Below are positions 7,514 through 22,951 of a stretch of DNA of 23,003 nucleotides, one piece after another. This stretch comes from a virus. The translations under genes were made by a program, and so were the position numbers. The stretch covers positions 1 to 23,003 of the IMG/VR virus record IMGVR_UViG_3300025949_000095; one strand, given 5' to 3'. Every line of letters begins with the position of its first letter. Positions within the stretch are counted from its first letter, which is position 1. The notes beneath the pieces were generated by a model that searched no databases, was not told the DNA's origin, and saw only the letters and a program-made list of their open reading frames with translations.

Positions 7514-7755
7514 TGCAGCAGGAACAATCCATCTCCGCAAAAATCCTGGCCGTGTTCGAGGAGGGCCCGGGAATGATCGATGACCTCGTGCTGGAACTCG
7601 GCATGTCGCCGAACCGCATCAGTGGCACGCTCAATCATTTGATCCGTGCAAGGAAGCTTGAGCGCAAGCCGTTCCACCTTCCGCCAGAGCTGCGCAAGCC
7701 GGGTAAGTCCGATGTTTTCCTATACTCGCTGCGAAGCTACAGGAAGGCGGCGTAA
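7513..7755 (+). CDS. Small winged-helix-like protein
   Basis: An 80-residue protein, MQQEQSISAKILAVFEEGPG, followed by MIDDLVLELGMSPNRISGTL and NHLIRARKLERK, then an aromatic-basic tail. This is the shape of a compact winged helix: a recognition helix around SPNRISGTLNHL, then a beta-wing. It is probably DNA-binding. The start overlaps the previous stop (TAATG), and its TAA overlaps the next ATG. The target is unknown. Confidence 0.7.
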   Translation: MQQEQSISAKILAVFEEGPGMIDDLVLELGMSPNRISGTLNHLIRARKLERKPFHLPPELRKPGKSDVFLYSLRSYRKAA

Positions 7756-8150
7756 TGGCTCGCCAAGCCTTCAAGCTCAAAGCTCCGCCACCGCCGACCG
7801 AACACGCCGAGCAATGCGCTCTGATGAGTTGGGCGCAGATGGCCTACGGCAAGCACCCCGAGTTGCGTTGGCTGTACGCAACGCCCAATGGCGGGTTCCG
7901 GCATCCGTCCACGGCATCCAAGCTCAAGGCCGAGGGGGCCAAGGCGGGCGTGTGTGACCTGTTCCTTCCCGTGGCGCGTGGCGGCTATCACGGGCTGTAT
8001 ATCGAGATGAAGCGCACCAAGGGTGGAGTGGTATCGCCCGAGCAGGCCGACTTTATCGAATTCGTCACGCAACACGGCTACCGCGCCGAGGTGTGCAAGG
8101 GCTGGATTGTTGCGCGCGATGTGCTGATGGATTACCTCAATGGGGAGTGA
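7755..8150 (+). CDS. VRR-NUC domain nuclease
   Basis: A 131-residue protein carrying a whole VRR-NUC domain: E-Q-alpha helix (TEHAEQCALMSWAQM), ATPNGGFRHPSTASKLKAEG, the metal-binding GVCDLFLPVARGG, LYIEMKRTKGGVVSPEQADF and a C-terminal YRAEVCKGWIVA. Asp in GVCDL and Glu-x-Lys in IEMK are the predicted catalytic residues of this restriction-like fold. Stand-alone phage members cleave branched DNA and may act as junction resolvases. Its position next to the YbcO-like and NinB-like genes makes a recombination or junction-processing module. Confidence 0.9.
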   Translation: MARQAFKLKAPPPPTEHAEQCALMSWAQMAYGKHPELRWLYATPNGGFRHPSTASKLKAEGAKAGVCDLFLPVARGGYHGLYIEMKRTKGGVVSPEQADFIEFVTQHGYRAEVCKGWIVARDVLMDYLNGE

Positions 8151-8153
8151 GTC

Positions 8154-8432
8154 ATGAATTATGCACATTTTGCTGAGTACGTCCGCAACATCGAGGATGA
8201 CCTCGTGAAGTTTGGCGTGCCGGCGAGTGAGGCCGCCAACATTGCGACGTACATCGAGGCCGCCGCCGTGAGTGCCGAAGCGAAGCAGCGCAAAGAGGAT
8301 CAGATGCGTCTTGATTTCCGCACGCACGAAGTCTCCGATCTGGCGAAGCGACACAACGTCACCGACCGCACCATCCGAACATGGAAGGCGAGGCTATTCG
8401 AGAATCCAGCACTGCGCAAAGTAGGAACATAG
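8154..8432 (+). CDS. Mor/gp49-like regulator ending in TAG
   Basis: A 92-residue protein. MNYAHFAEYVRNIEDDLVKF and GVPASEAANIATYIEAAAVS are followed by a C-terminal helix-turn-helix (SDLAKRHNVTDRTIRTWKAR). It resembles Mor/gp49-like phage transcription factors, so it may activate later genes. Its stop is TAG (8430-8432), the only gene in the window that clearly ends this way. Read as glutamine, translation would continue 31 more residues to a TGA at 8526-8528, over the next ribosome-binding site and start. That extension is Cys/Ser-rich and does not look like protein, so I treat TAG as a genuine stop here. Confidence 0.7.
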   Translation: MNYAHFAEYVRNIEDDLVKFGVPASEAANIATYIEAAAVSAEAKQRKEDQMRLDFRTHEVSDLAKRHNVTDRTIRTWKARLFENPALRKVGT

Positions 8433-8493
8433 CTTCCGGCCCAGCTTCCATTTTGCGTTAGATCATGCCGCCAATCCTCAGAGGGTCGGTGTA

Positions 8494-9267
8494 ATGGCGG
8501 ATCAGACGATTGCAAGCAAACAGGATGAGTTTCAGCAGTGGCACGAAGAGTGGCTGAACACTGACGCCGACCCGCGTCAAGCAACTGCGCGGGGTGGCAT
8601 GATGAACGTCCTCCCCGAGAATGACGGCGAGCGCGGCGATATTTTGCTCGCCACCTGTCTTTTGGATTACTTCCCCAATGCCTGCGCCGCCGTGGCCCGC
8701 CATAGCGCGAAGAGCAACGCAAAACACAACCCCGGCCAGCCACCTCACTGGGCGCGCGACAAGTCCACCGACCACCGCAACAAGATCGCGCGACACCTGA
8801 TCGACGCTGGCGGATTCGACAAGGACGGCAACCGGCATAGCGTCGCGATTGCATGGCGCGGTCTGGCGCTGCTTGAGGATGAGCTGATCGCGGAGGGCGC
8901 GGTGCCTGGGCGTAATGCTGTGGGGTCGCCATCAAGCAAAGCCGCATTAGCCGAGCTGGTCGCCGAAAGTCAGCGGCTTGGGCTGTATGACGACGGCATC
9001 CCTGCCGAATCCGCCTATCTCGCAAGCTTCGCGCCGAACGCTGACATTCCCGAAAAGTCGCCGCTCGCCGGCAGCCGCATTGCCACGCCTGCCGAACTTG
9101 CATATCTGCTACACGCAAACGAGCCGCACCGCGCGCCCGATCTGCGCAAGTGCGGCATCGGAGATGTTGCAGAAACTGCAACGACTGTTGCCTCGCAACA
9201 CCCCGCGCATGCCGAGGCTATCCGCATCCACGACGAGCGGCTTAACGGGCCGGAGGATCATCTGTGA
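8494..9267 (+). CDS. dATP/dGTP diphosphohydrolase N-terminal (DUF5664) family protein
   Basis: A 257-residue protein. The central part, HWARDKSTDHRNKIARHLID followed by GFDKDGNRHSVAIAWRGLAL and LEDELI, is the pattern I associate with DUF5664, named as the N-terminal domain of dATP/dGTP diphosphohydrolase. This may trim purine dNTP pools. The C-terminal 120 residues are Ala/Glu-rich and unrecognised. The GAGGGT ribosome-binding site is well placed, and the stop overlaps the next GTG. Evidence for catalysis is weak because MazG-type metal motifs are not obvious. Confidence 0.55.
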   Translation: MADQTIASKQDEFQQWHEEWLNTDADPRQATARGGMMNVLPENDGERGDILLATCLLDYFPNACAAVARHSAKSNAKHNPGQPPHWARDKSTDHRNKIARHLIDAGGFDKDGNRHSVAIAWRGLALLEDELIAEGAVPGRNAVGSPSSKAALAELVAESQRLGLYDDGIPAESAYLASFAPNADIPEKSPLAGSRIATPAELAYLLHANEPHRAPDLRKCGIGDVAETATTVASQHPAHAEAIRIHDERLNGPEDHL

Positions 9268-9452
9268 GCGAGTCCAAATCAAGTAGCGGCGGTATCGGAT
9301 TCGCCGGCCTGCTGACCGTGCTGTTCATCGGCCTGAAACTGACCGGCGCCATCACATGGAGCTGGTGGTGGGTCTTGTCGCCGCTATGGCTGGGCTACGC
9401 CATTGTGCTGCTTATCGTGGCGGTCTGGCTGTTTGTGGCGGCGCTGTCATGA
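9264..9452 (+). CDS. Small membrane protein, Fragile-X-F (TMEM185)-like
   Basis: A 62-residue protein starting at GTG 9264 (overlapping the preceding TGA). Two hydrophobic segments, about residues 12-29 and 36-61, are separated by TGAITWSWWWVLSPLW. This WSWWWVLSPLW motif is typical of phage and bacterial small proteins annotated as transmembrane Fragile-X-F. It is predicted to lie in the inner membrane; function is unknown. It is far from the lysis cassette, so a holin role is unlikely but not excluded. Confidence 0.75.
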   Translation: MSESKSSSGGIGFAGLLTVLFIGLKLTGAITWSWWWVLSPLWLGYAIVLLIVAVWLFVAALS

Positions 9453-9889: not shown

Positions 9890-10842
9890 CGGCGGCCAAG
9901 CGCGAAGTGGCGGCTATGCTTACCGACGGCATTAGCCAGCGGGAGATTAGCAGGCGCACAGGGGTATCCCGCAAAACGATTTATAGGTGGGCCAATGAAA
10001 TACCCAAGCCTGACTCGGCTCCGCGCAGACATTTTGTTTTGCCCGACACCCAATGCAAGCCGGGCGAGCCGATGGATCATCTGCGCTGGATCGGTAAGGC
10101 GATTCGCGACTACAAGCCCGACGTGGTGATTCACATCGGCGACCATTACGACTTCCCAAGCCTGTCCACGCATTCCGCTCCCGAGTCCGGTGCAATGGAA
10201 GGGTTGCGTTACGAGGACGACCTGAAAGCCGGTAATGATGGCCTACGCATCCTGCACAAAGCGATGGGCGTCTGGCATGGTCGGAAGATTCTGTTGCGGG
10301 GTAACCACGAGAACCGCCTGACGCGCTATATCGACCGCAACCCGAAGCTTGCTGGCGCGATGGGCTTCCACCAGTTCGCCGATAAGTCGCTAGGCTGGGA
10401 AGTGGTCGATTACTACTGCGGGTCGCCCGGCCAGATCGTGGTCGATGGCGTTATCTACGCCCATTACTTCGCGGCAGTGAATACGGGCCGCGCTATCGGC
10501 GGCACGGCCAACAACAAGCTCAATCACGTAGGCCGGTCATTCGTGCAAGGCCATGTGCAGGGCTATGAGGTCGGGACGAAGCAGTACGCCACTGGCGTAG
10601 TCCGCAAGGGCATCGTTGCCGGCTCTGCTTACCTGCACGACGAAGATTACAAGGGCATGGCTAACTCGCACTGGCGCGGCGTCGTCGTGCTGAACGAAGT
10701 CAGCGACGGGCAGTTCTGCGAGATGCCATTAACGCTGGACTATCTCTGCCGCAAATACGAGGGCATGAGCGTAGCCCGATACCTTCGCGAGCATTACGAA
10801 AACGCCGAGCAGCGGTTTTGCTTGGCTAGGAGTGTGGCATGA
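9886..10842 (+). CDS. HTH-metallophosphoesterase fusion
   Basis: A 318-residue protein. Residues 1-40 are a resolvase-type helix-turn-helix (GISQREISRRTGVSRKTIYR). From residue 48 it is a calcineurin-like phosphoesterase: FVLPDTQC, HIGDHYD (GDxxD), LLRGNHENRLTR (GNHE) and a late QGHVQG in place of the usual GHxH. These residues build the two-metal centre. The substrate could be nucleotides, nucleic acid or protein phosphate; the sequence does not decide. It overlaps both neighbours by ATGA. The HTH fusion suggests action at DNA. Confidence 0.85.
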   Translation: MTAAKREVAAMLTDGISQREISRRTGVSRKTIYRWANEIPKPDSAPRRHFVLPDTQCKPGEPMDHLRWIGKAIRDYKPDVVIHIGDHYDFPSLSTHSAPESGAMEGLRYEDDLKAGNDGLRILHKAMGVWHGRKILLRGNHENRLTRYIDRNPKLAGAMGFHQFADKSLGWEVVDYYCGSPGQIVVDGVIYAHYFAAVNTGRAIGGTANNKLNHVGRSFVQGHVQGYEVGTKQYATGVVRKGIVAGSAYLHDEDYKGMANSHWRGVVVLNEVSDGQFCEMPLTLDYLCRKYEGMSVARYLREHYENAEQRFCLARSVA

Positions 10843-11204
10843 GCTTGTTTACCAAGAAGGCTAAGGTTGAGCGCGTCATAGAGCGGACCATTGAAAAGGA
10901 GGTCATTGTCGAAAAGGAGGTCATTAAGTATCTGCTCGGCAACGCCGAAAGGGTTGTGGTGTATCGGGCATTCAAAGAGGAGACGAGAGTCTTTGTTGTT
11001 GGTTTCGCGATCGCTCCGCATACAACCGCTACGGAGCTTGGCTATTACCACTCATGTGCCCAAGCCTTTGCAGAGAATCCAGGCTGCAAAGTTGAGACTC
11101 GATCCCTATGGAAGATTGGTGACAAATTTGTCAAAAGCCTGAATGTAGTGCCGGTCAATATCAAGATCGAGCCAAAGCCTAAGCGCGGCAAAGGAAAGGC
11201 ATGA
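10839..11204 (+). CDS. Hypothetical protein with N-terminal Glu/Lys/Val coiled coil
   Basis: A 121-residue protein. Residues 5-30 repeat a charged KVERVIERTIEKEVIVEKEV pattern that is probably a short coiled coil. The rest has beta-like stretches (RVFVVGFAIAPHTTATELGY) and a basic KPKPKRGKGKA-like tail. No family recognised. The base composition is more AT-rich than its neighbours. It is coupled by ATGA to both adjoining genes. Confidence 0.65.
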   Translation: MSLFTKKAKVERVIERTIEKEVIVEKEVIKYLLGNAERVVVYRAFKEETRVFVVGFAIAPHTTATELGYYHSCAQAFAENPGCKVETRSLWKIGDKFVKSLNVVPVNIKIEPKPKRGKGKA

Positions 11205-11419
11205 AAGGCAAGCGCATATTCCTTGAGTCTCCGAAACACAGCGGCTCCTACGTGCGCGTGACCGTCGATGAGGACACGGGCTATTTGGAGATGAAGCTAT
11301 CCGACTGTGATCGCCGCATCTGGTGGATTTTTGGCAAGCCCGGGGATAAGCGCGCCGTCAGGAAGATCAAACTACTCAAGGCGATTGTCGATGAAGTCCA
11401 TGGGCACTTAGTCAAATGA
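11201..11419 (+). CDS. Hypothetical small protein
   Basis: A 72-residue protein, MKGKRIFLESPKHSGSYVRV, containing LEMKLSDCDRRIWWIFGKPG and a basic helix at the end. No family recognised. Four-base overlaps with both neighbours support translation. It is probably soluble and mixed alpha/beta. Confidence 0.6.
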   Translation: MKGKRIFLESPKHSGSYVRVTVDEDTGYLEMKLSDCDRRIWWIFGKPGDKRAVRKIKLLKAIVDEVHGHLVK

Positions 11420-11910
11420 GTGCCCTGCAACCCTTTGTGGCTCCTGATGTGGCCCAACGCTTCGCCACCACCGAACTAACCGACGAGTGCGTAGACGCAG
11501 CCAACCGCACAGCTCCTATGTTCGATTCCGCGTATCCCGGATGGCAACTCTATAGCCGCATTGTTCGCGGTGACACAGTGTTCGACCGCCAGCTGACCGC
11601 CTGGGCTATCGGATGCGCTCGCGCCTTCGCGCGGGCAAAGAAGCTAAACGGGCAGGGCGTAGTAGCTCCGCGTGGCCGACGCAATGATTGGATAGCTCAG
11701 GCTGGCGTTGACGCATTGGAGTTCGTCATCAATGGCAAGTACGACGAGTCAGCCCATGTTGCCGCTGGACGGCTTGCTGTCTGGACACCGAAATACCGCA
11801 AGGTACGCGGCTCGATCACGGCGATGATGCTTGACGGATTCGCCAACTATCAATCCGAACTTCACTACCAATACATGCGCGTTATGCGCGAAAACCGGAG
11901 AATCGCATGA
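11416..11910 (+). CDS. Hypothetical protein, possible late regulator
   Basis: A 164-residue, Ala/Arg-rich, mostly helical protein with AWAIGCARAFARAKKLNGQG, WIAQAGVDALEFVINGKYDE and RVMRENRRIA at the end. It is near the distal end of the early operon, about 0.7 kb before the tRNA/lysis region, where lambdoid phages keep the antiterminator Q. I see no zinc motif or other signature to prove this, so the role is position-based speculation. It overlaps both neighbours by ATGA. Confidence 0.55.
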   Translation: MSALQPFVAPDVAQRFATTELTDECVDAANRTAPMFDSAYPGWQLYSRIVRGDTVFDRQLTAWAIGCARAFARAKKLNGQGVVAPRGRRNDWIAQAGVDALEFVINGKYDESAHVAAGRLAVWTPKYRKVRGSITAMMLDGFANYQSELHYQYMRVMRENRRIA

Positions 11911-12187: not shown

Positions 12188-12626
12188 CTGCGACAATCGC
12201 CAAATCCCATGATGCAATGGGCTATGGCGGCCAACCGCCACTCATTTTGCCGCCCAGCCTCTACCGAAATCTCCCGAAGCCTCGCAAGGCCGGCAAGCTT
12301 GAACAGGGCGGCGATTCACATGCCCGCTCGGGACAATCATACGGCGCAGCATCACACCAGCGCCGGATTATCCCGAGCGGTAACAGTTTGGGGATGCATC
12401 AAATCCGATCACGTTTAGCTGACGTGGTGAGGTCGGGAGGCCCGTTACGCGCCGCAACCTCGAAACCCGGATGCAGCAGGGCTAGGCCGGCCCGTTCCCC
12501 CAATCAATCTGACCGTCCATGTGGCGGCACAGTAACAGAGGCGCTATGCGCTTCCAGTGGGGATCGTCGTGAGACGCCCAATGCCTGCCGGTGGGGCAAG
12601 ACCCCGGCCCGAATTTTGGAGGTTAC
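12188..12626 (+). other. Poorly coding stretch between early operon and tRNA/late region
   Basis: About 440 bases without a convincing intact gene. It holds a possible frameshifted gene (12217-12512, separate entry) and a GC-rich stretch at 12575-12612 with a GGGG-CAAGA-CCCC hairpin just before the ribosome-binding site of the 12627 gene. It lies where lambdoid phages place the late promoter, but I could not identify a clear -35/-10 pair. Confidence 0.4.
12217..12512 (+). pseudogene. Possible frameshifted gene containing one TAG
   Basis: From ATG 12217 the frame reads MGYGGQPPLILPPSLYRNLP, KPRKAGKLEQGGDSHARSGQ and, by about 12423, RSRLADVV. Near 12430-12440 a -1 shift leads into GRPVTRRNLETRMQQG, then TAG at 12483-12485, then AGPFPQSI and TGA at 12510-12512. 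With TAG as Gln, the C-terminus looks protein-like. The start has no good ribosome-binding site, and the unshifted frame (to 12672) becomes low-quality. This is a suggestion only. Confidence 0.3.
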
Positions 12627-12863
12627 ATGCATTACCGCAACGGCCGCGAGGCCAAGAACGGCGACAAGATAGTCAGGTTGGAAGGCGGCAAGGTTGTGGC
12701 TTTTGGCGTGCTTCATGGCGCCGTTCCCGGAAACGATTTCTGCAACGGCAGCATCGCTGTCGTGCAGTCGGCGAATGAGTACGCGTGCATGTGCGATTGC
12801 TTGCACATCGATGATGTGGCCGAGATGCTGGCAGATAAGGGCCTCAACAAACGCCCCGCATAA
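12627..12863 (+). CDS. Small phage protein of unknown function (MHYRNGREAK type)
   Basis: A 78-residue protein starting MHYRNGREAKNGDKIVRLEG, with VVAFGVLHGAVPGNDFCNGS and CMCDCLHIDDVAEMLADKGL. The TTGGAGG ribosome-binding site fixes ATG 12627 over the longer frame at 12591. I recognise the N-x-R-E-A-K-x-G-D and Cys-Leu-His patterns from small phage proteins often found near lysis genes; the function is unknown. It ends with TAA nine bases before the tRNA-Thr gene. Confidence 0.75.
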   Translation: MHYRNGREAKNGDKIVRLEGGKVVAFGVLHGAVPGNDFCNGSIAVVQSANEYACMCDCLHIDDVAEMLADKGLNKRPA

Positions 12864-12872
12864 CCCCAACAC

Positions 12873-12948
12873 GCCGGATTAGCTCAGACGGTAGAGCAGT
12901 CCCTTTGTACGGCACAGGTCGTGGGTTCGACTCCTGCATCCGGCTCCA
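12873..12948 (+). tRNA. tRNA-Thr (TGT)
   Basis: A seven-pair acceptor GCCGGAT/ATCCGGC, a D-arm with GCTC/GAGC and a T-arm with loop TTCGACT. The anticodon loop TTTGTAC gives TGT (12906-12908), which reads ACA. The anticodon stem has one C-C mismatch (12901/12913). The 3' end is T-CCA, encoded. TTGTA matches bacterial tRNA-Thr loops. Confidence 0.85.
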
Positions 12949-12953
12949 ATTAC

Positions 12954-13040
12954 GGAAGGTTCCGCTAGGTTGGCTGGCAATCCGGTTTGAACCCGGAGGG
13001 ACTGGAAACGGTAGGGGTTCGACTCCTCAGCCTTCCGCCA
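12954..13040 (+). tRNA. tRNA-Ser (TGA)
   Basis: A class II tRNA: acceptor GGAAGGT/GCCTTCC, a perfect five-pair anticodon stem TCCGG/CCGGA, loop TTTGAAC with anticodon TGA (12988-12990; decodes UCA). It has a long variable arm with ACTG-GAAA-CGGT, T-loop TTCGACT, discriminator G and encoded CCA. The long arm and G73 fit serine. It follows tRNA-Thr by five bases. Confidence 0.85.
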
Positions 13041-14175: not shown

Positions 14176-14805
14176 ATGCGCATCCTCGCCGCCCTGCTAT
14201 GTGTAGGGCTGGCAGGATGTATCCATGTGGATACGGCGCGTGAAACCGCAGTCCGCCTCCAATTCTCCAACGGGTCGTGTAGTGGCACGATTGTCGGGCC
14301 TCATGCCGTCCTGAGCGCGACGCATTGTTTCAGCTTCGGCGAGACGTTGCGGCTATGGCAACAGCCAGTGCGCATCCTGCAACAGATTGATGACGGTAAC
14401 GACCACACCATCATCATCGTGGATCGGAACTTTCCGGTATGGGTGGTCGTCGGCCACATGCCCAAAGTGGGCAGTCCCATACACATCTTGGGTAACCCGG
14501 GCGACCTGACCGAACTGTACCGGCATGGCTATGTTGCTGGCGTCGAGGGCGTAGGCGGCAAGCTGTGCGACCTGTACGACCTTCGCGGGTGGTTCGGGGA
14601 CTCCGGAGCAGGGATCTTCGATGATAACGGCCACCTGATTGGCGTCATCAGCCTCATTTACACGTTAGACGATGGACGCGGGCAGCTCACGATGATGGGC
14701 GGCTTCCCGCTGGCATTCACAGCCGAACAGTGGGGCGAGGCATTACGGGGTTCTCCGCGTAACTTTGCAATCGGCGCTCAAAACTATCAGGTCAGCGCGA
14801 AATGA
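14176..14805 (+). CDS. Secreted trypsin-like serine protease lipoprotein
   Basis: A 209-residue protein with a lipoprotein signal (hydrophobic residues 3-13, lipobox LAGC, Cys15). A chymotrypsin-fold protease follows: His50 in VLSATHC, Asp76 or Asp83 as the acid, and Ser143 in GWFGDSGAG. The paired cysteines C35/C51 flank the His loop as in trypsins. The export signal puts it in the periplasm, attached to a membrane. It lies between the endolysin and the spanins, so it may attack envelope proteins during lysis, process a virion protein or alter the lysogen surface. The role is inferred from position. Confidence 0.8.
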   Translation: MRILAALLCVGLAGCIHVDTARETAVRLQFSNGSCSGTIVGPHAVLSATHCFSFGETLRLWQQPVRILQQIDDGNDHTIIIVDRNFPVWVVVGHMPKVGSPIHILGNPGDLTELYRHGYVAGVEGVGGKLCDLYDLRGWFGDSGAGIFDDNGHLIGVISLIYTLDDGRGQLTMMGGFPLAFTAEQWGEALRGSPRNFAIGAQNYQVSAK

Positions 14806-15095
14806 GCTTCCTTCTGCGCTGGTGGAAGCCTATAGCCGTGATCCTTATGGCTGCCGGCCTCTACTTCGGCGGCATGTACCAAGGCCACCACGGCGAGGTA
14901 CAGCGCCAAGCCGTCAAGCACTCCAAGCAAGTCGTTAGGGATCAAAAGGCCGTAACCAAGCGTGCCGAGGTTCGCAGTCATGTTGAGCAGGACACATAGA
15001 AGTTACCCGACGCGCCTATTCAGCGCATTGGGGATGCTGATCCTGTTACCGCTGCTGGCAAGTTGCGCGCTTGGGCAAGAGACAAAGCCAAGTAA
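14802..15095 (+). CDS. Rz: Inner-membrane spanin (Rz) with an in-frame TAG
   Basis: Starts at ATG 14802 with a membrane anchor (KPIAVILMAAGLYFGGMY) and a periplasmic charged helix (VQRQAVKHSKQVVRDQKAVT). Codon 66 is TAG (14997-14999). Read as Gln, it continues QKLPDAPIQRIGDADP and a 15-residue end to TAA at 15093-15095, giving 97 residues; the QKLPDAPIQRIGDADP type of ending is typical of phage inner spanins. Without read-through the protein has 65 residues and loses the C-terminal part expected to reach the outer spanin. So completion of lysis should need the amber-decoding tRNA at 15413. The gene overlaps the protease stop and contains the start of the outer spanin. Confidence 0.85.
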
Positions 15096-15344: not shown

Positions 15345-15555
15345 GGGATCGGCCCCACGCCCATTCAGCGTGGATCAGGCGACATTCGCCAGCAACTGGG
15401 ACGCAATCTTTTCGGGGAGTGGCGTAATGGGCAGCGCGGCGGACTCTAACTCCGCAGGTTCCGGCTCGGCTCCGGACTCCCCCGCCATCTATATCGACGC
15501 CGACACTGGCGAATAGGTCACTGAAGACTGGTGGCCCGGCGATTCGCATGACTGA
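15334..15555 (+). CDS. Small late protein overlapping the suppressor tRNA; contains TAG
   Basis: GTG 15334 begins MNGKGSAPRPFSVDQATFAS followed by NWDAIF, the pattern of small phage proteins beginning GKGSxPRPxSV. Codons 27-51 run through the tRNA gene and give only Gly/Ser/Ala-rich sequence. Then YIDADTGE is followed by TAG (15514-15516). Read as Gln, it continues VTEDWWPGDSHD to TGA at 15553-15555, overlapping the next ATG. The tRNA spans exactly 75 bases, so it could be an in-frame insertion into this gene. tRNA processing would cut this mRNA. Whether the protein is made is uncertain. Confidence 0.45.
15413..15487 (+). tRNA. Amber-decoding suppressor tRNA (CTA), glutamine-type
   Basis: The acceptor 2-7/66-71 is GGGGAG/CTCCCC with an open C1-C72 position. 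The D-stem is GCGT/GCGC, the anticodon stem GCGGA/TCCGC, the loop CTCTAAC with anticodon CTA at 15446-15448, and the T-stem TCCGG/CCGGA. G73 and CCA are encoded. CTA pairs with UAG. An unpaired 1-72 position, G2-C71, G3-C70, G73, G10, U35 and A37 are features GlnRS recognises, so charging with glutamine is likely. The T-loop CTCGGCT is unusual (C54, G58). It lies just upstream of the terminase and capsid genes, which carry in-frame TAG codons. Confidence 0.9.
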
Positions 15556-15784: not shown

Positions 15785-16138
15785 ATGGGAAGGCCAACCG
15801 ACTATCGGGAGGAATACTGCGATACCGTCATTGAGCTTGGCAGGCAGGGCAAGAGCCATTGCTAGATTGCTGCCGAACTTGATGTGGCACGGCAGACTCT
15901 GCACAACTGGGCTAGTGAACATCCTGAATTTTTGGACGCAATCACGCGAGCAAGGGACTTGGCTCAAGCGTGGTTCGAGAACATGGGCCAGTCTGGCCTT
16001 GTCATGCCGGGTTTCAACGCCTCGCTGTGGGCCAAGCAGGTGAGCTGCCGATTCCGCGACGACTACACGGACAAGCAACAGACGGAACACTCTGGAACGT
16101 TGACCGGCTTGACGGTGACCTTTGTCGCGCCCGAGTAA
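15785..16138 (+). CDS. terS: Terminase small subunit, one in-frame TAG
   Basis: ATG 15785 follows a GAGGAA ribosome-binding site. The protein begins MGRPTDYREEYCDTVIELGR, and codon 27 is TAG (15863-15865). Read as Gln it gives HCQIAAELDVARQTLHNWAS, a complete helix-turn-helix, then DAITRARDLAQAWFENMGQS and FNASLWAKQVSCRFRDDYTD, ending at TAA. This is the usual DNA-recognition subunit that selects phage DNA for packaging, here 117 residues. Without suppression only 26 residues are made, with no start codon soon after for a usable restart. Its end overlaps the large subunit start. Confidence 0.9.
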
Positions 16139-17381
16139 AGCCATCGAGTTCCCGGCCAAGCTCCAATGCCTATTTGGTCCGCAACGCTATACCGTGCTTC
16201 ACGGTGGCCGAGGTGGCGCCAAGTCATGGGGCGTGGCCCGGTCCTACCTGATCCGAGGCGCGCAGTCTAAGCGTCGTTTCCTGTGCACTCGCGAAGTGCA
16301 GAAGTCAATCCGCGATTCGGTGCACAAGTTGCTAAGTGACTAGATCCAGGCGCTTGAACTTGGTGCGTTCTACGAGGTGCAGTAGAACATCATCAAAGGG
16401 GCCAACGGGACCGAGTTCCTATTCTCCGGCCTGAGCGATCAGACCGCGGAGTCGATTAAGTCGTTTGAAGGCGTCGATGATGTGTGGATCGAAGAGGCCC
16501 AGGCTGTCAGCAAGCGCTCATGGGACATTCTTATCCCGACGATCCGCAAGGCCGGGTCTCGCATCACGGTCACGCTGAACCCCGAGTTGGACACGGACGA
16601 AACCTATGTCCGGTTCATCGAGAACCCGCCACCGGATTCCGTGGTGGTGAAGATCAACTATGCGGACAATCCGTGGTTCCCCGAAGTATTGGAGGCTGAG
16701 CGGCTGCATGCGCTCGCCACGATGCCTCGCGTGGACTACGACAACATCTGGGAGGGCCTGTGCAAGCCCGCCGTCACTGGCGCGATCTATGCCGATGAGA
16801 TTGCCAAGGCGCAGGAAGAGGGCCGTATTGGCCTGTTCCCGTATGACCCAGCACTCAAGGTTCACGTCATCTTCGACTTGGGCTGGAACGACAAGATGGC
16901 GATTGGCTTGTGCCAGCGCCACATCTCGTCCCTGCGCCTGATCGAGTACATCGAGGTTGATCACAAAACGCTGGACTGGTGTTCTGCCGAGCTGAAGCAA
17001 AAGAACCTCAATTGGGGCCGTCTCTGGCTGCCGCACGATGGCGCGCACGGCGACTACAAGACCGGCAAGAGTGCCGAGCAGATCATGCGTGAGCTAGGCT
17101 GGGATGTGGGCATTGTGCCGATCCAGCCGGTCGAGACGGGCATCAAGGCGGCCCGCATGGCGTTCGGTCAGCTCTACATCAACAAGACTAAGTGTGAGCG
17201 CCTGATCCAGTGCCTGAAGCGCTATAAGCGCGGCGTTCCCGTCTCCACTGGCGAGCCGGGCGCTCCGGTCCACGACGAGTGGAGCCACGGTGCCGATATG
17301 TTCCGATACATGGCCTCAACGGCGCCAAAGATGGTTAACGAAGATATGCGTCCGATTTCCTATCACAGGCTTACCCGCTAA
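16122..17381 (+). CDS. terL: Terminase large subunit, two in-frame TAG codons
   Basis: The packaging ATPase-nuclease. Start: a TGA lies at 16116-16118 and the first usable start is TTG 16122, overlapping the small subunit, so I accept it with caution. Walker A is GGRGGAKS (28-35). TAG is codon 74 (16341) and codon 88 (16383), in SD-Q-IQALELGAFYEVQ-Q-NII, where glutamine fits. Walker B/catalytic is DDVWIEEA (119-126), and TVTLNPELDTDETYV is the coupling motif. The nuclease part has VIFDLGWNDK (Asp about 252) and the C-terminal HDEWSHGADMFRYMA. About 419 residues, normal for this family. Ends TAATG with the portal. Confidence 0.93.
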
Positions 17382-19588
17382 TGGCATACACGTCCAACAA
17401 GGCGTCGATCAAGCACGAGAAGATGACGGACGATGTTATCGAGCTTGCCTGCCGCAACGCGCTGGACAACAGCATGGGTGGGCCGGGCACTGAGATTGCC
17501 TAGCTGCGGCTGCGCAATTTGGAGTACTACAACGCCGAACCCACTGGCGAGCTTGCGCCGCCTGAGATTGACGACCGCAGCGACTTCGTGGCCACGGACG
17601 TTGCCGATACCGTCGAGGCGATGCTGCCGCAGATCATGAAGCCGTTCGTTACGGATGATGAAGCAGTGGAGTTCCAGGCGCGCCGCCCCGGTTCTGAGCC
17701 TGTCGCATAGCTCGCCACGGCCTACGTGAATTACCTGTTCTACACCAAGAACGACGGTGTAGGCGTCATGTACGACTGGTTCAAGGATGCGCTGATTCAG
17801 AAGGTCGGCTTCGTCAAGGTATGGGCTGAGGAGGAATTCGAAGATATTCAGACCGCCTATTCCGGCATCACGCAGGAACAGGTGGTGATGCTGCAGCAAT
17901 AGGGCTGGGAGCTTGACGGCGAACCGCAGCAGGAAGAGCCGCAGGCCATGCCGCAGCAGTTCGGGCCAGACGGGCAGCCAATGCCGCAGCCGCCCGCCAT
18001 TCCGACGCTCACGGTCAGCCTGAAGAAAGAAGACAAGCGCATGGCGGTGAAGGTCGCCGCCTGCGCGCCGCACGAAGTCCGTGTGGACGCCAATGCGCGC
18101 TGGGGCGATGAGCCGGCGATGATTGCCCACGTCTACCCGCGCCGGAAGTTTGAGCTTGAAGAGGAAGGCTATGACCTGTCCGATATTGGCCAGTCCGGCA
18201 ACGATTCGCGGTACGACAGCGAGACGCTTGCATAGCTTGGGCTGAATGCCGATTACACGGCAGTAGAGCCGCACGAAAGCCATAAGCTGTACCAGTGCAG
18301 CGAGGTCTACATCAAGCTCGACGCGGACGGTGACGGCATTGCCGAATGGCTGTGCTGCCACATGATCGAGCAGAAGCTGGTGGAGTGGGAGAAGTGCGAC
18401 GGGCATCCGTTCGTGTGGATCTGCCCCATTCCTCGTCCGCATGCGTTCTTCGGCGATTGCCCGGCCGACATGGCGCTGCAGCCTCAGAAGCTGCGCACGA
18501 ACGTCATCCGCGCCATCCAAGACAACATGATGCTGTCCGTCAACCAGCGGACCTACATCAATCTTGATGCCGGCGTGAACATGGACGACTGGCTGGAAAA
18601 CCGGCCCGGTGGTGCGGTTCGCGGTCACGGCCCGGCGAATACCGCGATCCAGCCCATTGTGCAGCCTGCGTTGGGCGCTCCAGCCTACGAATTCAACGAA
18701 TGGTTGGAAGGTTGGAAGGAAAATCGCACCGGCTTCACGCGCTACTCGCAGGGCATGGACTCCGACAGCCTCAACAAGACGGCGACCGGCGTCAGCATCA
18801 TCACGCAGAAAGCCGACATGCGCATGGAGCTGATGGCGCGCATGTTCGCGGTCGGCATGAAGGGGTTGTTTAGCAAGATGCTGAAACTCGCTGTCCAGTT
18901 CCAGGACAAGGCCGAGATGATGCAGGTGAATGGGTCATGGGTCGCCGTGAACCCGTCCGAATGGAAGGATCAATTCAACACGACAATCAAGGTCGGTCTT
19001 GGCACGGGCAGCAAGGAGCAGCTTGCCGCTCGCGTCATGGGCCTGATGCAGGTTCAGATGCAGGCTGCACAGTTTGGCGTCGTCACGCCCGCGCAGATTG
19101 CCGAGACCGTCAAGTTGTACGTGCAGGCTGCCGAGTTCAAGGAGCCTGAGCGCTTCGTGAGTCCTGAGCCAACCGGCATGCCCCCGAACCCGCAAGCCTT
19201 CCAGCAGATGCAGCAGCAGCAGCAGCAGCAGATGGAGCAGGCGAAACAGCAGTTGGAGCAGTTGAGCCAGGAGAACGGACAGCTCAAGCAGTAGACGGCC
19301 CAGCAGCAGCAGGACGCATCGCTGAAACAGATGGAGTTGGAGCAAAAGGCCCGCGCCGCCGAGGACAAGCACGCCGAGACGCTGGCGAGCATTAGCCTCA
19401 AGCAGTAGGACCAAGACCGCAAGGCGCATGAATCGCACATGGCCGGCGTCGAGACGGCTCACAGCATGGCGCACAAGGACATCGACGCGCAGCAGAACCA
19501 ACAGATTGCCAGCTTGCAGCAGCAGTTGGATGAACTAAAGGCTGCGATGGGTTAGGGCGAAGCCAACGAGGAGGAGGGCGGCGAGTGA
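17381..19588 (+). CDS. Portal protein (P22/podovirus type), seven in-frame TAG codons
   Basis: A 735-residue protein when TAG is read as Gln at 17501, 17708, 17900, 18233, 19292, 19406 and 19553. It contains ADTVEAMLPQIMKPF, LYQCSEVYIKLDADGDGIAE, PRPHAFFGDCPADMALQPQK, FTRYSQGMDSDSLNKTATGV and MRMELMARMFAVGMKGLFSK, which I recognise from podoviral portals. It forms the dodecameric vertex ring through which DNA enters. The C-terminal 110 residues are Gln-rich coiled coil (19190-19550), encoded by CAG runs, with three of the TAG codons among them. The start overlaps the terminase TAA; the stop TGA overlaps the next GTG. Confidence 0.93.
19201..19240 (+). repeat. CAG-rich tract in the portal C-terminus
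   Basis: An uneven CAG triplet run encodes QQMQQQQQQQMEQ. CAG differs from TAG by one C-to-T change. The tract is a likely coiled-coil or flexible tail and could vary in length. Confidence 0.85.
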
Positions 19589-20041: not shown

Positions 20042-20977
20042 ATGGCAGGTGACGCAGCGATGCAGCCAGCCGATAGCGCAACGTCGCTCTCGGATCTTGG
20101 CGGATTTATCGACAAGTCCGAGGAAGTCGAGGGCGAGGAATCGGAAGAGGAGGAAGCGCCGGAAGGTGAGGAATCCGAGTAGGAAGAGGAAGAGGGCGAA
20201 GAGGGCGAGGACGAGGCCAAAGACGACGAAGGAGACGACTCCACCATTGTGCTGAAGCACGATGGCAAGGATGTGCCGCTGAAGAAGTCCGAGGTGATCG
20301 AGTTGGCCTAGAAGGGCTTCGACTACTCGCAGAAAACGATGGCTGTCGCGGAGGAACGCAAGCACGTCGAGGCGTTGCAGGCGCAAGCCGACGAGTACCG
20401 CCAGCACAACGAAAAGGCATTGACGGCGACCCTTGACCGTCTGAATGCATTCGCTCAGTTCACCGAGTCACAGATAGGCGCCCCGCCGCCTGTCGAACTG
20501 GCCTCGCAGGATGTGGGGCTGTACATCGCACAGAAGGAGCAATACGAAACACGCAAGGGCCAGTTACAGAGGGCGCACGAGGCCATCGCGAATGTTCAAC
20601 AGGAAGCGCAGCGGAAACGCCAAGCGTGGATTGCGGAACAGGCCGATGCCACCGAGAAGGCGCTGAGGGACACCCTGCCGGGTTTTGGTGAGAAGACAAT
20701 CGACGAATTGGCCGCGTACCTTGGCAAGGCTGGCATCAGCCCCAAGACCGCCGACGTCGGTTATGTGCAGAAGGGTTTGTGGGAGATTGCCGCGAAGGCA
20801 AAAGCCTATGACGAGTTGCAGGCCAAAACGGCCACGCTCAAGCCCGTTGCACAACTGCCCAAGGTGGCTAAGCCATCGGCGGCAAACCAGCCCAACAGGG
20901 CGGCTGTGAACAAGCAGGAGGCGTTCAAGCGCTTCGATGCCAAGCAGTCGCTTCAATCCCTCGGTAACTTGCTTTAA
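20042..20977 (+). CDS. Scaffold protein, two in-frame TAG codons
   Basis: A 311-residue protein with TAG at codon 47 (20180) and codon 90 (20309), both read as Gln. The first 75 residues are extremely acidic (EEVEGEESEEEEAPEGEESE). Then IVLKHDGKDVPLKKSEVIEL and KGFDYSQKTMAVAEERKHVE begin a long helical region. The end is basic (KRFDAKQSLQSLGNLL). Acidic start, coiled-coil body, basic end and position between portal and capsid are typical of procapsid scaffolds. Without suppression only 46 residues form. The spacer to the capsid ATG is nine bases, with an AAGGA ribosome-binding site. Confidence 0.85.
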
Positions 20978-20986
20978 GGAACAACC

Positions 20987-21955
20987 ATGACCGCGAATAC
21001 CCTGATTACCCCGTCCGTCGTCCGTGTGGCGGAGGATGTGGAAGACCGCATCTACAACTTCAATCCGTAGGATACCCCGCTCGTTAGCATGATCGACCGC
21101 ATCAAGGTGTCGAACGTGTTCCACGAGTGGACCCGCGACAGCTACCGCGCCCCGAGTGCATCGAATGCTGCAATCGAAGGCGCTGATGCCTCCTACGCCG
21201 CGCAGGTCCAGCCCGGCCCGTTGAACAACCGCACACAGATTTTCCAAGACACCTTGAGCGTGTCCAACACTGCCGAGACGGTCAAGAAGTACGGCCGTTC
21301 GTCCGAAATCAACCGCCTGAAAGCGAAGAAGATGGTTGAGCTGAGGCGCGATATCGAGGCGGCCGCCATCGGCAACGGCGCGTCTGTCACGGGCACCGGC
21401 AGCGTGGCCGGCCAGATGCGTGGCCTGTTCGGCTTCATCGCCACGAACGCCAGCGTTGGCGCCACCACGGGCGTTGCGCCGAACCCGGTAACCAATACCG
21501 CCCCGGTGGCGGGTACGGCTCGCGCTATCTCTGACGTGTTGGTCAAGGCGGCGGTTCTGGCTGCGTATACCAACGGCGGCAGCGGTAGTGTCCTACTGGT
21601 CTCGCCGGCACAGAAGCAGAAGGTCTCCGCGCTGACCGGCAACGTCACGCGGCAGCAGTAGGTTCCGTCTGATAAGGACGGCAATCTGGTGCTGAACACC
21701 GCCTTCACCTTCTACGGCCATGACTTCGGCAATACGAAGGTGGTTCCGGATCGCGTAATGGCGGCTGGTGGGGCTGGCTTGACGGCATCGGCCTACCTGA
21801 TCGACGGCGATAAGCTGGCCCTGGGCCAGCTGCGTCCGTTCGAGTCGGAGCAGCTGGCGACCACGGGCGATGCCAAGCAGTGGCAGATCCGCACCGAAGT
21901 CACGCTGGTGGTGCGTGATGAAAAGCCGCTCGCGTCGATCCTTGACCTGAGCTGA
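20987..21955 (+). CDS. Major capsid protein (SU10/DUF5309 type), two in-frame TAG codons
   Basis: A 322-residue protein with TAG at codon 28 (21068; RIYNFNP-Q-DTPLVSMI) and codon 225 (21659; GNVTRQQ-Q-VPSDKDG). FHEWTRDSYRAPSASNAAIE, VSNTAETVKKYGRSSEINRL and KMVELRRDIEAAAIGNGASV are hallmarks of the SU10/DUF5309 capsid family (HK97 fold). The end has DGDKLALGQLRPFESEQLAT and VTLVVRDEKPLASILDLS. Without amber read-through only 27 residues are made, so no capsid could form. Followed by a strong terminator-like hairpin at 21964. Confidence 0.95.
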
Positions 21956-22007: not shown

Positions 22008-22298
22008 ATGCGCGCACGGATTGAACAGATAGACGCCTTACATGAGGCACATATCTACGAAGCCAGCATGGACGACCTCCGCGCCGTGGCCGATCATTGC
22101 AAGGCGCGTTAGAGCGCTGGCGATACCGGCGATAGCGAAATGCGAGCACTGATGACGGTCCCAGCCATCATCGTGCAGCAGTACATGAACGAAAATGGCG
22201 TGTCGTATCCCGAGTTCATGCGCAACCCTGAGCATGCCCGCCGCATGATGAACGACCCAGCCCTATCCGCCTTCCGCATCCATCGGGGTCGCGTCTGA
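22008..22298 (+). CDS. Small head-region protein, one in-frame TAG
   Basis: A 96-residue protein from ATG 22008 (CGGAGG ribosome-binding site). MRARIEQIDALHEAHIYEAS precedes TAG at codon 35 (22110; ADHCKAR-Q-SAGDTGDS). Then PAIIVQQYMNENGVSYPEFM and RNPEHARRMMNDPALSAFRI. It ends with TGA overlapping the next ATG (TGATG). I do not recognise the family; position suggests a capsid-vertex or head-completion accessory. Without suppression a 34-residue fragment results. Confidence 0.75.
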
Positions 22299-22951
22299 TG
22301 CAGTTCTCGAACTACACCGACTTCCGCACCGCCGTGCTGAAGATGATCGACGGTGACGACACCAATGCTGGCGCCCTGAGCCAGTCTACGCTAGATCTGC
22401 TGATTGGCATGGGGGAGTAGGCGGTTTACTACGGCATGACGGGCGCGCGTGGTGAGACATTGCCGCCGCTGCGCTGCGCTGAAATGGAGTCGCCGCTAGC
22501 CATCACGGCTACCGGAAACATCGCCACGATCCCCGCTGACTGCCTTGAGCTGATCCGCGTGCAGGTATCGGGCGAATATCCGATGGACTACGCCGCCGAA
22601 GAGGGCCAGCTTCGCTAGCTGAAAGCTGGTGGTGGCTCGGGTGCGGCACGCAAGTACACGCAACAGGGATTGAGTCTGTTGTTCTTCCCCACGGTAACGG
22701 ATGGAACCGCCATCGCCGGCCGGTACTACAAAAAGGCGGCGGATATCTCGTCCGGCACGCTGAATGCCGCGTTCAACCGCTACCCCGACGTGTGGCTTTA
22801 CGCTGCGCTGGCTGAGTCAGCCCCGTTCATCGGCGAGGATGGCCGTTTGCCGCTGTGGAAGGCGCAATACGCAGGTCGGTTGATGGCTGCGCTTGCCAAT
22901 GAGCGCGCCCGCTTCACGCACGGATCGCGGCTGACCCAGGTTCCCCGGTGA
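22298..22951 (+). CDS. Head-tail adaptor-like protein, two in-frame TAG codons
   Basis: A 217-residue protein with TAG at codon 41 (22418; IGMGE-Q-AVYYGMTG) and codon 107 (22616; EGQLR-Q-LKAGGGSG), both natural as Gln. MQFSNYTDFRTAVLKMIDGD, IATIPADCLELIRVQVSGEY, IAGRYYKKAADISSGTLNAA and RYPDVWLYAALAESAPFIGE match the pattern of podoviral/SU10-type adaptor proteins that bind beneath the portal ring. It ends with TGA overlapping GTG of the next gene. Confidence 0.85.

Follow-up and report, generated by a model that had tools for sequence, protein, structure and literature searches.

The window analysed here, a stretch of 23,003 nucleotides comprising positions 1 to 23,003 of IMG/VR record IMGVR_UViG_3300025949_000095, carries on its plus strand a gene for a 92-amino-acid, Mor/C-like helix-turn-helix (HTH) protein (8154–8432) that is a putative early or middle transcription regulator. 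The gene lies between two others on the same strand, a VRR-NUC nuclease gene upstream (7755–8150, Pfam PF08774) and a gene downstream whose 257-amino-acid product has a dATP/dGTP-diphosphohydrolase-N-like domain (8494–9267, Pfam PF18909 and PHROG 27780). It ends in TAG at 8430–8432, in frame with the ATG at 8154, as an earlier sequence-only reading of this DNA had stated. If this TAG were read as sense the frame would stay open to the TGA at 8526–8528 and the protein would gain 31 residues (LPAQLPFCVRSCRQSSEGRCNGGSDDCKQTG, with four Cys and four Ser); this hypothetical tail (31 codons plus the TGA, 8433–8528) passes the next gene's start at 8494 by 35 bases in a different frame, and so the Cys/Ser-rich extension and the invasion of the downstream start described in that reading are both borne out. 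Its remark that all other complete genes end in TGA or TAA holds for the early genes: apart from this one, 20 rightward early genes were called in the window, with 17 TGA and 3 TAA stops and no TAG. With translation table 11 one further open reading frame ends in TAG (14802–14999), and this is the i-spanin (Rz) gene, where the TAG is sense (below). At the contig end, positions 1–130 contain a short tandem repeat that reads Ser-Ala-Gly-Val-Ala-Arg-Cys-Gly-Cys in one frame.

The late genes of the window contain many in-frame TAG codons: on the plus strand, one in the terminase small subunit gene (TerS, 15785–16138), two in the terminase large subunit gene (TerL, 16122–17381), seven in the SU10-type portal gene (17381–19588) and two in the SU10-type major capsid protein gene (20987–21955), these last two genes being identified by Pfam-profile matches, as well as two in a scaffold-like gene named by position only (20042–20977); two further late genes (22008–22298 and 22298–22951) have one and two, respectively. 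The Rz-like i-spanin gene (14802–15095, PHROG 1026) is a positive control for sense TAG; its TAG at 14997–14999 is Gln in the homologue from L010, and a Gln codon of the window is in turn TAG in L006, so that the exchange goes both ways. The phage also encodes a suppressor tRNA with anticodon CUA (15413–15487, plus strand), whose discriminator G and unpaired 1–72 positions are the features expected of a tRNA charged by GlnRS and are thus compatible with Gln charging. Relatives most often have Gln (26%, followed by Glu at 12%) at the TAG columns of the alignments of TerL, portal, scaffold and capsid, although Gln does not lead when the capsid is taken by itself. Because of this alignment preference, the two-way exchange in Rz and the discriminator and 1–72 features of the tRNA, TAG in the late genes most likely specifies Gln. 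The window phage thus has both in-frame TAG in conserved late genes and its own CUA tRNA, and the earlier proposal that amber is a stop early and a sense codon late agrees with what we find. The CUA suppressor tRNAs of relatives (L007, L011, L014, L017, L022, L146 and others) are 71 to 94 nt long and resemble several different backbones; most share GGGG/CCCC in the acceptor stem, and almost every one has a G-CCA end. ARAGORN finds no CUA tRNA in prophages L127 (in Dyella sp. SG609) and L231/L232 (G062), which nonetheless have many late sense TAGs; reading these would call for an unusual tRNA or a suppressor supplied by the host.

In crAss-like phages it is established that TAG is reassigned in late genes only and that phage-encoded suppressor tRNAs go with this (PMC7886860, PMC9523058, PMC10607447); PMC7886860 is a survey of the group, and PMC9523058 gives proteomics of code-15 late recoding. 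Suppressor tRNAs have also been proposed to take part in switching to lytic genes (PMC10879173). The window phage resembles the code-15 crAss-like phages in that TAG is most likely Gln in its late structural and lysis genes, in having a phage CUA tRNA and in the standard code of its early genes. It differs from them in that its group has a high G+C content (56–63%), genomes of about 40 kb and an SU10-type portal and capsid. One relative, G007, resides as a prophage in Dyella sp. SG609, and the hosts of the group therefore include Rhodanobacteraceae.

The identity of the 92-amino-acid protein was assessed by sequence and structure. It matches PHROG 836 ("late transcriptional activator") with E = 9e-4, and no Pfam match was found for it. 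Its AlphaFold (AF2) model, built from a 10-row alignment, has a mean pLDDT of 86.6 and consists of helices only with a C-terminal HTH, and the top three Foldseek hits for this model are Mor (9l0y), C (9l0x) and Mor (1rr7) of phage Mu, with non-significant E values of 0.4–0.5, an rmsd of about 12 and a VIA-align Z of 4.2 against 1rr7. The Mu activators are likewise small and all-helical with a C-terminal HTH; set against them, the matches of the window protein are weak, and it is a putative regulator. Four family members used as queries found no matching protein among annotated phages, and a profile of subfamily B found nothing in 233 genomes of the Dyella genome's family. The name "Mor/gp49-like" used in the sequence-only reading is weakly supported, by the PHROG 836 match and by the Mor/C top hits with their non-significant Foldseek values. 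A Mor/C-like regulator is our best guess for this protein, as a tentative family assignment.

Could the TAG at 8430 be sense here too, and the true product carry 31 more residues? Late genes of the phage are indeed decoded with TAG as sense, but the coding score falls from +0.28 per codon in the body of the gene to −0.29 log-likelihood per codon in the tail, which is thus non-coding, whereas the stretches behind the sense TAGs of late genes range from −0.12 to +0.59, nearly all of them being positive. The reading had named conservation of the protein beyond the TAG as the sign of a sense codon, and we looked for it in the relatives compared without finding protein homology past the stop in any of them; their read-through tails are unrelated and range from 1 to 68 residues (for example 31, 17, 20, 68 and 1), with read-through in G005 adding a single residue, and the homologues stop at about the same place by TAG, TGA or TAA. 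A longer protein is accordingly extremely improbable, and a conserved extended isoform was rejected since the tails are unrelated. The signs of programmed read-through are likewise missing, as there is no conserved coding sequence past the stop and the identity of the stop is not conserved among suppressing phages (7 TAG, 3 TGA and 2 TAA). Because of the negative tail score, the unrelated tails, the like ends of the homologues and the hairpin leader that follows (below), the TAG at 8430 is, on the evidence of sequence, a true stop. One homologue (L106, 6436–6490) has three close in-frame TAGs at the gene end (TAG MVAR TAG VVE TAG) and then a TGA that overlaps the next ATG.

The stop codon comparison among relatives that the sequence-only reading had suggested was made with 28 homologues of the Mor/C-like gene (27 relatives of the window gene), those in phages that lack a suppressor tRNA being found by HMM and further searches. 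TAG ends 18 of the 28. In recoded phages the stops are 7 TAG, 3 TGA and 2 TAA (n = 12), in standard-code phages 7 TAG, 3 TAA and 1 TGA (n = 11; four contigs, L153, L238, L243 and L245, were checked over long late regions, and L239–L242, L246 and L247 are classed by the absence of a CUA tRNA together with 67–462 aligned late codons, or none for L241), and in homologues placed in neither class 4 TAG and 1 TGA (n = 5). The Mor-like gene was not recognised in recoded L145–L148. TAG is equally frequent with and without recoding (Fisher p = 1.0, on near-identical earlier counts of 7/12 recoded versus 6/10 standard-code). Among the checked contigs, L153, from the G519 phage, has a TAG-ended Mor-like gene, no sense TAG in ~5,800 aligned late codons and no CUA tRNA. 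Those of L238, L243 and L245 are alike, also with a TAG-ended Mor-like gene and no CUA tRNA, and their fetched parts have at most 1–2 doubtful in-frame TAGs per 5,900 to 7,800 codons of strong genes, compared with 9–41 per 4,100–7,100 codons in recoded contigs. Since the two groups do not differ, TAG is a habit of this gene and not of recoding, and the suggestion of a dual-state codon that could act as a sensor of the switch is not supported: seven of 11 standard-code homologues end in it, and five of 12 recoded ones use TGA or TAA.

TAG stops are not rare in general, as they end ~12% of the gapped genes of standard-code phages, and they are unusual in the early genes of recoded phages. Among early genes followed by a positive gap, TAG ends 2 of 104 in recoded phages compared with 13 of 110 in those with the standard code (p = 0.006), and by these counts early genes are likely purged of TAG terminators once a phage is recoded. 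The Mor-like gene stands out in that TAG persists there in spite of the purge (7/12 in recoded phages versus 2/104 of the other gapped early genes, p = 6e-7 with kinship ignored). An initial claim that recoding makes TAG specific to the Mor-like gene (7/11 equivalents versus 2/194 other early genes, p = 4e-9) was withdrawn because TAG is not available to overlapping genes (TGA and TAA can share bases with the following ATG, TAG cannot) and because the standard-code relatives are equal. A role of TAG as a stop that has nothing to do with recoding, such as tuned termination or coupling ahead of the hairpin, would explain the preference in both groups and the excess of TAG (18/28 homologues) over the 12% background (6/10 versus 13/110, p = 0.001). 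We nonetheless consider such a role unlikely, since no conserved sequence was seen around the stop codon of the homologues and the codon is labile, its TAG state changing ~7 times across the tree, which is barely below the 8.4 of the shuffles.

Between the stop and the next gene lies a leader hairpin (8469–8491, plus strand) that contains the next gene's Shine-Dalgarno (SD) sequence AGAGGG (8480–8485). The stop-to-ATG leaders of 20 homologous loci (35–61 bases) all fold so that the SD lies within a hairpin and the start codon directly behind it, with a mean z of −3.3 and 17 of 20 below −1.5, against a mean of −0.6 for 85 other leaders (gaps of at least 30 bases, some homologous leaders being among them); the window's own hairpin, with z = −1.4, is among the weakest of the family. 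Its arms vary while pairing is kept (GCACC/GGTGC, GCATC/GATGC, CCTCAC/GTGAGG and GGCTCC/GGAGCC), and eight more loci of the standard-code branch, folded without z-scores, form it too. It is present in recoded and standard-code phages alike, whichever stop (TAG, TGA or TAA) precedes it, and the gene downstream varies between phages, so the hairpin is part of the regulator's module. There is no Rfam match at the site, and a scan of IMG/VR for the leader palindrome returned mostly unrelated palindromes. Like SD-covering leader hairpins elsewhere it contains the SD and adjoins the start codon, with covarying arms; it differs from them in preceding differing genes. Ribosomes that pass the TAG might melt the hairpin and so alter translation of the next gene, and its position next to the start in all homologous loci examined and the in-frame continuation of read-through into the next gene in G002 and L108 would suit this. 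Such a switch is nevertheless quite improbable, as the hairpin is equally present with TGA or TAA stops and without recoding, and the next genes vary from phage to phage.

The explanation that we hold to be probable is that the TAG at 8430 is an ordinary terminator of an early HTH regulator, an ancestral habit whose late read-through is tolerated. Release factor 1 of the host would recognise the codon at 8430–8432 during the first expression of the gene, and the codon was probably inherited from standard-code ancestors that already had a preference for TAG in this gene family. The Mor-like gene, unlike most in its tightly overlapping operon, has an untranslated leader with an SD-covering hairpin behind its stop, and it would be able to use TAG because this leader and not an overlapping gene comes next. 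Late in infection the phage CUA tRNA probably lets some ribosomes add the non-functional tail, which the phage would tolerate; read-through is physically expected and an extended product may exist, but nothing points to a selected role for it. Tolerance alone explains neither the sparing of the Mor-like gene nor the family's TAG preference.

Selection could instead have kept the TAG as feedback from the code switch, with build-up of the suppressor tRNA causing read-through that tags or inactivates the early regulator and helps early shut-off; any tail would serve, and so tail conservation is not required. Retention of TAG in 7 of 12 recoded phages though it is purged elsewhere in the early operon fits this, as does TAG on several CI-like repressors and integrases of recoded relatives, but TAG is equally frequent in phages without the suppressor, five recoded relatives use TGA or TAA, and the single residue added in G005 is hard to fit with it, and we regard such feedback as unlikely. 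The CI-like and other HTH repressors of recoded relatives end in TAG in five of seven left arms, a small sample in which two are near-identical (all minus strand, in contigs oriented with TerL on plus: 8779–9303 in G002, the contig of L007, 2580–3566 in G004, 12481–12966 in G005, 10240–10806 in G007 and 10773–11759 in G008). The other two of the seven end in TGA (the window) and TAA (G006), and the repressor of standard-code L002 has TAA. The SG609 prophage, whose repressor-like gene has TAG, closes its Mor-like gene with TGA. TAG is also the stop of the integrases of G002, G005 and G007, and equally of that of standard-code G001.

Our preferred reading remains that of an ordinary, tolerated terminator. 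A G+C-rich phage group, one member of which is a prophage of a cultured Dyella strain, joins the late-recoding phages, and the comparison of one gene between recoded and standard-code phages shows that a TAG stop on an early gene need not signal a code switch. Recoded phages show a measurable loss of TAG terminators among their early genes, with the Mor-like gene as its defined exception. It is improbable, in our estimation, that TAG is kept selectively on regulators of recoded phages (the Mor-like gene, joined in several relatives by the CI-like repressor and the integrase) as a commitment switch based on the genetic code; if it were, accumulation of the suppressor tRNA would lengthen and disable the regulators of the previous programme by using stops that were already in place.
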